64,000 nucleotides of DNA from Roseinatronobacter domitianus (GTDB lineage Bacteria; Pseudomonadota; Alphaproteobacteria; Rhodobacterales; Rhodobacteraceae). Both the position numbers and the translations under genes were made by a program. The DNA lies in contig NZ_JALZWP010000002.1 of assembly GCF_023336755.1 (NCBI RefSeq), positions 186,001 through 250,000 on the forward strand, in the 5' to 3' direction. Of the stretch, positions 60,086 to 64,000 are shown piece by piece; position 1 is the stretch's first letter, and each line of letters starts with the position of its first letter. The notes beneath the pieces were generated by a model. It saw only the letters and a program-made list of their open reading frames with translations, had not been told where the DNA came from and made no database searches.

Positions 60086-61081
60086 ATGCGCGAGATTACC
60101 CTGTCGCAGGCCGTGAACGAGGCGATTGCCGAGGAAATGCGCCGTGATCCGACTGTGTTCCTGATGGGCGAAGATGTGGCCGAGGCGGGCACCCCCTTCA
60201 AGGTGCTGTCCGGTCTGGTCGAGGAATTCGGCACCGACCGCGTGCTCGATACGCCGATTTCCGAGCCCGGTTTCGTCGGCATGGCTGTGGGGGCCGCAAT
60301 GACCGGCGCGCGCCCCATCGTGGACCTGATGTTCGGCGATTTCATCTACCTGGTCATGGACCAGTTGTGCAATCAGGCCGCCAAGCAGCACTACATGTCG
60401 GGCGGCAAGCTGACCGTGCCGATGGTGCTGCGCACCAATATGGGCGCGACCCGGCGCTCGGCGGCGCAGCACAGCCAGAGCTTGCAGGCTTTGGTCGCCC
60501 ATATTCCGGGCGTGAAGGTGGCGATGCCATCGTCAGCCTATGAGGCCAAGGGCCTGATGAAAACCGCCATCCGCGACAACAATCCGGTGGTGATTTTCGA
60601 AGACAAGCTGATGTATCAGGACAAGGCGCCGGTGCCGGAAGAGGAATATCTTATCCCCTTCGGCGAGGCCAATGTGAAGCGCGAAGGCTCTGACATTACT
60701 TTCATCGCCACATCGTCCATGGTGCAGGTGGCAGAGAAAGCCGCCGAAACACTGGCCGCCGAAGGCATCAGCGCCGAAGTCATCGACCCGCGCACCATTG
60801 TGCCGCTGGATGAGGCAACGCTGCTGGCCAGCGTGAAAAAAACCAGCCGCGCGATTGTCATTGACGAGGGCCACCAAAGCTACGGCGTGACCGCTGAAAT
60901 CGCCAGCCGCCTGAACGAAAAGGCGTTTTACCATCTGGATGCGCCGGTGCTGCGCATGGGTGCGATGGATGTGCCGGTGCCGTTCTCGCCTGCGCTGGAA
61001 GATATCACCGTTCCGACACCCGAGGGTGTGGCCGCGAATGCCCGCAAGCTGTGCGCCGGGGAGATGATTTATGCCGCATGA
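60086..61081 (+). CDS. Thiamine-diphosphate dehydrogenase E1, beta subunit
   Basis: A 331-residue transketolase-like E1-beta: VFLMGEDVAEAGTPFKVL, DTPISEPGFVGMAVGAAMTGARPIVDLMFGDF, TNMGATRRSAAQHSQSL and C-terminal DEGHQSYGVTAEIASRLNE. Its partner is the alpha subunit encoded 12 bases upstream. It overlaps the following lipoyl-protein gene by 11 bases. The acetoin-dehydrogenase type is the closest by size and pairing. Confidence 0.92.
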   Translation: MREITLSQAVNEAIAEEMRRDPTVFLMGEDVAEAGTPFKVLSGLVEEFGTDRVLDTPISEPGFVGMAVGAAMTGARPIVDLMFGDFIYLVMDQLCNQAAKQHYMSGGKLTVPMVLRTNMGATRRSAAQHSQSLQALVAHIPGVKVAMPSSAYEAKGLMKTAIRDNNPVVIFEDKLMYQDKAPVPEEEYLIPFGEANVKREGSDITFIATSSMVQVAEKAAETLAAEGISAEVIDPRTIVPLDEATLLASVKKTSRAIVIDEGHQSYGVTAEIASRLNEKAFYHLDAPVLRMGAMDVPVPFSPALEDITVPTPEGVAANARKLCAGEMIYAA

Positions 61082-62345
61082 CGTGACGATGCCTCAACTG
61101 GGCATGGCGCAGGATGCAGGCAAGATCGTGGCCTGGCTGAAAGCGCCGGGCGATGCGGTCGCCAAGGGCGATGCCCTGTTCGAGGTGGAAACCGACAAGG
61201 CCACAATGGAGGTCGAGGCGCAGGCGGCCGGCTACCTGACCGGCGTTGTCGCGTCTGAGGGCGATGATGTGCCGGTGGGGCAGGTGATCGCGCGTATCTC
61301 TGAAACTGCCAAGGATGACACGCCTGCACCCGCCACACCGCCCACGCCAGAGCCTGCGAGTGATGCATTGCCAGAGGGCAAGCAAATCACCATGCCGCAA
61401 CTGGGCATGGCGCAGGATAGCGGGCAAATGGTTGGTTGGCTGGTAGAACTGGGCGCACAGGTCGGCCCGGATGACCTGTTGTTCGAGGTCGAGACCGACA
61501 AGGCCACGATGGAAGTGCCCGCCGGGGCGCGCGGTTACTTGGCCGCGACCTTGGCGCAAGCGGGCGAGGATGTGGCAGTCGGCGCGCCGGTCGCGATCCT
61601 GACGGCAGAGGCACCGGCGAACCCCGTCGCGCGCTCGGCAGATGATGCGGCCAAAGCGCAGGCTCTCGCCCCCGCGCAGCCCGAACCAGAGGCCGCGCCC
61701 GCCAAGCCCGCAGAGGCACCGAAACCCGCCCCCAAAGCGCTCCTCGCAGAGGGCGGGCGCATCCTTGCGTCCCCAAAAGCGCGGCGTTTGGCATTGGAAC
61801 AAGGGTTGGACCTGTCGCGCTTGGTCAAAGCTGGCCACCCTCAGCCCTACCATGTGAGCGATCTGGAGGTGCTGCGCGCGATGCCAGAAGGTCAGACACC
61901 CAGCACTGGCACCGCGCAGGCCAGCCGCCGCCTGACCGCACGGGTCAAGCGCCCGGAACTGGAGGCCTTCCTGAATTGGGCGCAAGGCCAGGGGGTGGAC
62001 GACACTGATGCCGCCTTGGCCGGGCTGCTGGGCCAAGGCCATGTGCAGACGCTGGCTATTGAACGCATCGGCCACGCGCGCAGCTTTGCAATATTGCGCC
62101 GCCTGTCGCAGGTTGCTGTGACTGAGGATATGCCAGAACTGATCTTGCGCGATCTGCGCGGCAGCTTCGTGCAGAATGTAGAGCTTGGGGCCGAAGATAT
62201 TCCGGTCCTGACGCTACTGCCCAAGGGCAAGGGGCTGACGCTGGTGCTGGAATGCGCACCCGAGCAGCTGAGCGCCGAGGCAGCGATTGCGCTATTGAAC
62301 ACTGTCGCAGGACGGCTGGAGCAACCGCTTCGCCACCTGTTGTGA
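61071..62345 (+). CDS. Double-lipoyl E2-like protein with degenerate catalytic domain
   Basis: A 424-residue protein with two lipoyl domains (about 3-77 and 105-180), each with the lipoylation loop ETDKATMEV (Lys43 and Lys144); an Ala/Pro linker; and a peripheral-subunit-binding domain (about 230-268, ILASPKARRLALEQGLDLSR). The C-terminal part (about 285-424) is half the usual acyltransferase domain and ends in a shape like its last helix (QLSAEAAIALLNTVAGRLEQPL), but the D-H-R-x2-D-G motif is replaced by A-P-E-Q-L-S-A, so catalysis is not expected. It should carry acyl groups; transfer is probably done by the second E2 gene downstream. Confidence 0.85.
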   Translation: MPHDVTMPQLGMAQDAGKIVAWLKAPGDAVAKGDALFEVETDKATMEVEAQAAGYLTGVVASEGDDVPVGQVIARISETAKDDTPAPATPPTPEPASDALPEGKQITMPQLGMAQDSGQMVGWLVELGAQVGPDDLLFEVETDKATMEVPAGARGYLAATLAQAGEDVAVGAPVAILTAEAPANPVARSADDAAKAQALAPAQPEPEAAPAKPAEAPKPAPKALLAEGGRILASPKARRLALEQGLDLSRLVKAGHPQPYHVSDLEVLRAMPEGQTPSTGTAQASRRLTARVKRPELEAFLNWAQGQGVDDTDAALAGLLGQGHVQTLAIERIGHARSFAILRRLSQVAVTEDMPELILRDLRGSFVQNVELGAEDIPVLTLLPKGKGLTLVLECAPEQLSAEAAIALLNTVAGRLEQPLRHLL

Positions 62346-62357
62346 AAGGGGACCGAG

Positions 62358-63782: not shown

Positions 63783-63791
63783 GGGGGGATC

Positions 63792-64000
63792 ATGGACCTG
63801 CAAGCAAGCCCCAGCACCAAGAGTTATGCCGCCAACAAGGGCGTCGATCTTGAGGAACTGGCCCGCAAAACCGGACGAACCACGCTTGGGCGCGAGGATG
63901 TTGACGCGCATCTGGGCGGCGCGGCACCCAGCATGGCGGGGCCGGACCAGACCCGCTACTGGGATGTGGACCATGCCGCGCATGGCCCCGTGACCGAAGA
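63792..64000 (+). CDS. Second E2, starting at the subunit-binding domain (cut by window end)
   Basis: From ATG 63792 (ribosome site AAGGGGGG) the frame is open to the window end. The first 45 residues contain a peripheral-subunit-binding domain, SPSTKSYAANKGVDLEELAR, then REDVDAHLGG, and a linker that leads to YWDVDHAAHGPVTE, the kind of stretch that precedes the E2 acyltransferase core. There is no lipoyl domain before it. It is probably the catalytic E2 partner of the upstream lipoyl protein. Only the first 69 residues are visible, so the catalytic domain itself is inferred. Confidence 0.7.
   Translation, partial: MDLQASPSTKSYAANKGVDLEELARKTGRTTLGREDVDAHLGGAAPSMAGPDQTRYWDVDHAAHGPVTE

Follow-up and report, generated by a model that had tools for sequence, protein, structure and literature searches.

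The window analysed here is a stretch of 64,000 nucleotides from Roseinatronobacter domitianus (G000:C2:186001-250000, in a genome of 3.36 Mb and 55 contigs). Towards its right-hand end lies an operon whose genes follow one another in the order putative regulator, short-chain dehydrogenase (SDR), M24 protein, alpha and beta subunits of a thiamine-diphosphate 2-oxo-acid dehydrogenase (E1 alpha and E1 beta), lipoyl carrier, aldehyde dehydrogenase and core of a dihydrolipoyl acyltransferase (E2) (Table 1). It is proposed that the operon probably encodes one 2-oxo-acid (or acyloin) dehydrogenase complex, in which two E2-derived proteins, the lipoyl carrier and the lipoyl-less core, each reduced where the other is intact, share the functions of E2. 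Domain content, conservation, predicted fold, operon structure and the loss of the catalytic motif from the carrier were all computed. Pfam domains E1_dh, Transket_pyr and Transketolase_C score above cut-off in the two E1 subunits of the window, so that the thiamine-diphosphate E1 required by such a complex is present. The core gene runs over the edge of the window and was followed in the adjoining stretch (L004), in which positions 5793-6680 (L004:5793-6680) are equivalent to window positions 63792-64679; it continues intact past the edge, and an artefact of the window edge is therefore rejected.

Table 1. Genes of the operon, with their positions in the window and the basis of each assignment.
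Feature	Position	Strand	Basis or remark
Putative regulator	55012..56835	+	MarR-like at the N-terminus (weak, below cut-off), then a fused solute-binding-protein domain; operon head in 38/56 family loci
Short-chain dehydrogenase (SDR), acetoin-reductase/iditol-dehydrogenase-like	56846..57652	+	Operon member in 39/56 family loci
M24 protein (creatinase/DddP-like)	57718..59028	+	Conserved operon member
E1 alpha subunit	59102..60073	+	Family match
E1 beta subunit (thiamine-diphosphate 2-oxo-acid dehydrogenase)	60086..61081	+	Family match
Lipoyl carrier / putative pseudo-E2, 424 residues	61071..62345	+	Pfam domains, AlphaFold fold, no catalytic motif
Aldehyde dehydrogenase, succinate-semialdehyde-dehydrogenase-like	62358..63782	+	Between carrier and core in 46/47 family loci with both (exception L092)
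Lipoyl-less E2 core, 295 residues	63792..64000 (first 209 bases), on to the equivalent of 64679	+	AceF-type core, DHRVING

The lipoyl carrier

The carrier begins with two lipoyl domains at residues ~1-80 and ~104-180 (Pfam Biotin_lipoyl, 125.7 bits); the lipoylation motif VETDKA occurs twice, each time with a lysine that appears to be modifiable. A weak subunit-binding domain lies at residues ~230-270 (Pfam E3_binding, 21 of 36 profile positions, below cut-off). No 2-oxoacid_dh domain is listed for this protein in the Pfam scan at E up to 1, the acyltransferase motif DHRxx[DN]G is absent from it, and its best family scores, to the E2 models of acetoin dehydrogenase and pyruvate dehydrogenase (PDH), are obtained through the lipoyl part. 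A first-pass annotation of this DNA, made from the letters alone, had ascribed two intact lipoyl domains to the upstream protein, as is now confirmed by the Pfam matches and the two VETDKA motifs. It had also placed a subunit-binding domain in each of the two proteins; both are present, but in the window's pair both are weak and under the Pfam cut-off.

The remainder of the carrier, residues ~283-424 with the end PLRHLL, is a reduced domain of predicted acyltransferase fold without the catalytic motif. AlphaFold gave a mean predicted local distance difference test score (pLDDT) of 89 for the whole carrier (60 sequences), and a pLDDT of 95.1 with a predicted TM-score (pTM) of 0.87 for the C-terminal 152 residues alone (58 sequences). 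In a Foldseek search of the PDB the C-terminal domain had 84 matches at E <=0.001 (best E 4.8e-6), and almost every one of the best 50 of these 84 is either the catalytic domain of an E2 or a chloramphenicol acetyltransferase (CAT), with TM-scores by query length of 0.50-0.66. The predicted fold and these matches indicate that the C-terminus is most likely a reduced E2/CAT domain, of about 150 instead of about 230 residues. The catalytic motif is found in none of 65 carriers, nor in any of the rows dropped from the counts (see below), which rules out a hidden motif, and the lipoylation motif is kept in all 65, twice in 50 of them and once in 15 (L060, among the 15, begins inside a broken frame). 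The first-pass view of a shortened acyltransferase domain that has lost D-H-R-x2-D-G thus agrees with both the predicted fold and the motif counts.

The lipoyl-less core

The second protein is a complete acyltransferase core (2-oxoacid_dh, E 1.3e-73) with a weak subunit-binding domain (E3_binding, E 0.037, below the Pfam cut-off), and no lipoyl domain was matched in it at E up to 1. Its motif is intact as DHRVING, so the DHRxx[DN]G required of an acyltransferase is found here and not in the carrier. The closest solved relative is the E2p core of Azotobacter (E 3.6e-72), which likewise has DHRVING, and the nearest NCBIfam model is the long PDH E2 of the AceF type (TIGR01348), the score being under the family cut-off. 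Counting this one, the window's genome encodes three E2 cores; the others belong to larger frames, 508 and 443 residues long. Among 57 operon cores the catalytic motif is present in 54, the remaining three being contig ends or broken frames. Past position 64000, beyond the reach of the first-pass annotation, the gene holds the acyltransferase core on which the idea of a divided E2 depended, and a lipoyl domain further along the chain is excluded over the full 295 residues; the catalytic motif looked for there is present, ending in NG and not in DG.

Conservation and distribution of the split

The C-terminal part of the carrier was searched for in 394 genomes of the family, the window's own included. 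Matches with E of 3.2e-7 or better, a cut set by eye, were taken as real and occur in 55 genomes; 116 of the 394 reach E 0.001, the excess consisting largely of ordinary E2s that match through their subunit-binding domain. The flanks fetched from all 55 genomes contain 56 loci, two of which lie in a single genome. Carrier and core are found together, in one operon with E1 alpha and E1 beta, at 47 loci in 46 of the 394 genomes, so the search for gene pairs with the same split, suggested by the first-pass annotation, has an affirmative answer. The nine loci without a core comprise six core-less ones (L093, L095-L098, L102), two with broken frames (L094, L100) and one at a contig end (L099). At L092 the core follows the carrier directly; at the other 46 loci with both it lies one gene on. 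Across the 56 loci, some of them on short contigs, E1 beta was seen at 55, E1 alpha and the aldehyde dehydrogenase at 53 each and the M24 gene at 52, with the SDR and the putative regulator at the frequencies given in Table 1.

A scan of named genomes yielded 13 loci, including Loktanella, Maritimibacter, Thalassovita, Tranquillimonas and Roseibium, of which at least two (L036, L038) are, by their length, contigs already in the set. Other families of the class have the pair as well (L149, L150, L188), and so does genome G942 (L187) outside the class, where a one-lipoyl carrier, an aldehyde dehydrogenase and a core at 53% identity are present. This last core (G942:C5) is the most distant one, and by eye it was judged to have neither a subunit-binding domain nor a lipoyl domain.

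Domain scans at E 0.01 listed Biotin_lipoyl for 60 of 60 carriers, E3_binding for 54 and 2-oxoacid_dh for none; for 49 cores they listed 2-oxoacid_dh in all 49, E3_binding in 45 and Biotin_lipoyl in none. Neither protein is therefore a classic E2, with lipoyl domain, subunit-binding domain and active core on one polypeptide. Rows L035-L038, L047, L090, L094, L099 and L100 (copies, presumed near copies, contig ends and broken frames) were dropped before the carrier, core and arginine counts, L035 and L037 as presumed copies; L042, whose contig ends before the expected position of the core, was dropped from the arginine table, and L060 was kept as core-present despite broken frames. A lone frameshift splitting one gene is rejected as the origin of the pair, because an aldehyde dehydrogenase gene separates the two, each of them has its own subunit-binding domain and E2 fold, and the arrangement is conserved. 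The split E2 layout is real and conserved in many marine and related bacteria. Public annotation hides it: the names given on two Phaeobacter plasmids are 'biotin/lipoyl-containing protein' for the carrier and, for the core, '2-oxo acid dehydrogenase subunit E2'.

The pseudo-core is the fastest diverging part of the system: over 46 loci its mean identity to the window's protein is 46%, while the core averages 71% and the first lipoyl domain 77%. Such divergence would be expected if there had been two ordinary E2 genes, of which the carrier is a decaying pseudo-E2 on its way to being lost and the core has merely lost its arms. We regard this as highly improbable, since most of the 55 carrier-bearing genomes of the family, and one genome outside the class, retain the open frame, the lipoyl domains and the conserved motif at the end, and an arm-less core could not work unless arms were supplied from elsewhere.

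A tree of E2 cores was built with 13 of the lipoyl-less ones; these form one group (support 90/79), which joins a full-length AceF-type E2 of 653 residues (100/98) and stands apart from the PDH and 2-oxoglutarate dehydrogenase (OGDH) E2s of the family. Because carrier and core have each retained their subunit-binding domain and E2 fold, we infer that reciprocal losses in two E2 proteins are a more probable source of the layout than breakage of one gene.

Evidence for one complex and proposed mechanism

The gene lpdA, encoding the lipoamide dehydrogenase (E3), lies directly after the core at nine of 97 loci examined (one a duplicate, hence eight genomes), G942 included; at some loci the flank was too short to tell. 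Phaeobacter gallaeciensis and P. inhibens each have a plasmid on which the full set of E1 alpha, E1 beta, carrier, aldehyde dehydrogenase, core and lpdA is annotated, and a plasmid of Marinovum algicola has the same set minus lpdA. The genome of the window encodes two lipoamide dehydrogenases (Lpd) above the family cut-off, both outside the operon. The co-encoded E3 of some relatives supports the view that carrier and core belong to one complex, in which E1, carrier and core would share the labour. On the two Phaeobacter plasmids (L227, pGal_E78; L228, pP92_e) transporter genes, operon and lpdA form one block, and given the plasmid location, with one plasmid typed as conjugative, this block may be mobile as a unit.

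The last residues of the carrier, typically PLRHLL, align with the C-terminus of the core in a weak profile alignment. The fourth-last residue is arginine at all 57 loci with a core and at one of seven without (Fisher p 9e-8, uncorrected for ancestry and near copies). This tracking of core presence by the C-terminal arginine, the best indirect sign of contact, suggests that the carrier docks on the core via its C-terminus. In a tree of E1 beta with 72 rows the core-less state amounts to seven parsimony changes, at least three of them forced by well-supported branches.

From these features we infer a single complex with arm-to-core transfer in trans. The E1 heterotetramer would load an acyl group on the lipoyl arms of the carrier. 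The arms would deliver it to the lipoyl-less core, a separate protein whose active sites would form acyl-CoA, and E3 would then reoxidise the lipoyl arm. The shrunken, motif-less domain of the carrier would most likely anchor the carrier by docking on the assembled core, a contact in which the conserved PLRHLL end would take part.

Several results weigh against this proposal. When the C-terminus of the carrier alone is aligned with the core by hhalign, the probability is 8.8% (E 0.0038), so the homology of the two rests on the predicted fold; for the whole carrier the match (probability 83%) is confined to the subunit-binding domain. The tree of E2 cores carries a warning of long branches meeting. 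E3 beside the core is a minority state, and the window's operon has none. The arginine association ignores shared ancestry and includes near copies, and the core-less L098 keeps the arginine. The E1 beta tree, with its long branches and many weakly supported inner ones, leaves the direction of core gain or loss unsettled. Finally, seven loci (L093, L095-L098, L102, L151) keep a one-lipoyl carrier with its reduced domain and no core in the locus, which implies that the pseudo-core has a use beyond docking on a dedicated core, or that it decays.

Relatives without a core, with a free lipoyl domain or with a full E2

Six of the seven core-less genomes were searched with the core protein, and the best hits, at 33-37% identity, are ordinary E2s; a dedicated core elsewhere in these six is therefore rejected. 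All seven genomes have one or two E2 cores each, in open frames of 416-514 residues. A complete aldehyde dehydrogenase adjoins the carrier at four of the seven loci, L098, L102 and L151 having none adjacent.

A different state is seen in another family of the class (f30), with genomes of up to 1.4 Mb and a guanine-plus-cytosine content of about 0.36 (five loci measured), which is probably SAR11-like. A search of 52 genomes of this family for the M24 gene was positive in 28. At all 21 loci fetched, a free-standing lipoyl domain stands alone in the E2 position, between E1 beta and the aldehyde dehydrogenase, and no acyltransferase is found in the operon at these 21. The free-standing domains are open frames of 80-97 codons (L158:11440-11703; also in L153, L154 and L169-L186). 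The six free-lipoyl genomes checked have two E2 cores each. In a third family, two genomes (L152, L155) have M24, E1 alpha and E1 beta together with a normal full E2.

The loci that lack a dedicated core invite a different explanation, namely that the carrier is a mobile lipoyl arm for the housekeeping E2 cores of PDH and OGDH, as a mirror of the actinobacterial hybrid complex, and that the operon core is an optional accessory. It would account for the seven core-less carriers and for the f30 loci, and there is a parallel in the OdhA of Corynebacterium, which relies on the lipoyl groups of another E2 (PMC8146983). We consider it unlikely nonetheless: where a core is found it lies in the operon of the carrier, at the near-constant position described above; a dedicated E3 follows the core in some genomes; and the conserved C-terminus of the carrier tracks the dedicated core. 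A second explanation dispenses with CoA, in that E1 and the lipoyl carrier would act by themselves, their product passing to the adjacent aldehyde dehydrogenase or being freed as an acid, and the core would be an add-on of some lineages. The aldehyde dehydrogenase does adjoin the carrier at most loci, including all 21 with a free lipoyl domain and four of the seven core-less ones. We think such a route quite improbable, however, as the acyltransferase motif is intact in 54 of 57 operon cores and the rest are incomplete, and as the core-less L098, L102 and L151 are also without an adjacent complete aldehyde dehydrogenase.

The division of E2 between carrier and core may be one state in a graded series on an M24-linked pathway: a full E2, a carrier with a core, a pseudo-core carrier alone, and a free lipoyl domain. 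Tentatively, and with some doubt, we suggest that the acyltransferase is dispensable in part of the family, the arm passing the acyl group on, either to a shared housekeeping E2 or to an acceptor other than CoA, which would amount to a lipoyl-dependent dehydrogenase without an E2 of its own. The series need not be a single line of descent, as the E1 subunits of the f30 and third-family groups are 38-46% identical to those of the window. The core-less and free-arm relatives are natural test cases for a lipoyl arm without its own acyltransferase.

Neighbouring genes and a possible pathway

The M24 protein scores 120.8 bits against a DddP cut-off of 600 and is related to DddP and to prolidases; across distant families it is 64-67% identical and there more conserved than the E1 subunits. 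Divergent ribose-type transporter genes and a second acetoin-reductase-like SDR occupy positions 50963-54804 of the window (- strand), and the Phaeobacter and Marinovum plasmids show the same order. Of the proteins compared with known families, the binding protein and the permease tested beside the operon are most like ribose/arabinose-type sugar importers, and the SDRs like acetoin reductase and iditol dehydrogenase, in each case below the family cut-offs. In the f30 genome of L158, genes like iolG, iolC and iolB, below cut-off, come after the operon. As to the substrate, it is a reasonable guess from these likenesses that the pathway would lead from a sugar or polyol to an acyloin or a 2-oxo acid. 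The protein at the head of the operon looks like a regulator built from the binding protein of a transporter; it is also present, at 28-30% identity, at four f30 loci.

Comparison with known systems

The closest known layout is that of the eukaryotic E3-binding protein (E3BP, also called protein X or PDHX), which like the carrier joins one or more lipoyl domains, a subunit-binding domain and a dead E2-derived C-terminal domain on one chain, the inactivity of the carrier's domain being deduced from its missing motif. In eukaryotes the active E2 keeps lipoyl domains of its own, whereas the active core described here has none at all, and the genes form a bacterial, catabolic-looking operon. The fungal E3BP is described as having a catalytically dead and strongly reduced E2-derived domain that binds inside the E2 core (PMC10156792). 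In the same paper E3BP counts as a gene of eukaryotes, and bacteria are said to serve both E1 and E3 with a single subunit-binding domain (PMC10156792); since E3BP is there called eukaryotic, the likeness of the carrier to it is likely convergent.

The borrowing of lipoyl arms by an acyltransferase is shared with the actinobacterial hybrid of PDH and 2-oxoglutarate dehydrogenase (PDH-ODH), formed by OdhA/KGD with AceF; PMC8146983 reports that OdhA, an acyltransferase without a lipoyl domain of its own, depends on the lipoyl groups of another protein. In that system, however, acyltransferase and E1 are fused and the arms come from a complete, active E2, whereas here the donor would be a dedicated pseudo-E2.

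AceF of the Azotobacter/E. coli type (E2p, TIGR01348) is nearest to the core by both NCBIfam score and PDB search, and DHRVING is shared with the Azotobacter protein. AceF usually partners AceE, in contrast to the operon core, whose partners are E1 alpha and beta subunits and which has no lipoyl domains and scores below the family cut-off. Acetoin dehydrogenase (AcoABCL) has in common with the present system the E1 alpha and beta subunits, a lipoyl-bearing E2, an E3 (here co-encoded in some relatives) and acetoin-reductase-like SDR neighbours. An E2 of the AcoC type carries an alpha/beta-hydrolase domain; the core gene of the operon does not encode an E2 of this type.

Our literature searches, of open-licence papers and for the most part at the level of listings, turned up neither a bacterial E3BP nor a lipoyl-less E2 standing alone beside its own carrier, and nothing on this operon; the first-pass remark that no characterised enzyme with this exact layout was known agrees with this, E3BP being the nearest case. 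If the proposal is correct, bacteria have independently built a division of E2 like that of E3BP and have gone further, to an active core without a swinging arm. The operon would then offer a simple system in which to study the persistence of a pseudo-E2, the delivery of substrate by lipoyl arms in trans and the stoichiometry of E2 cores.

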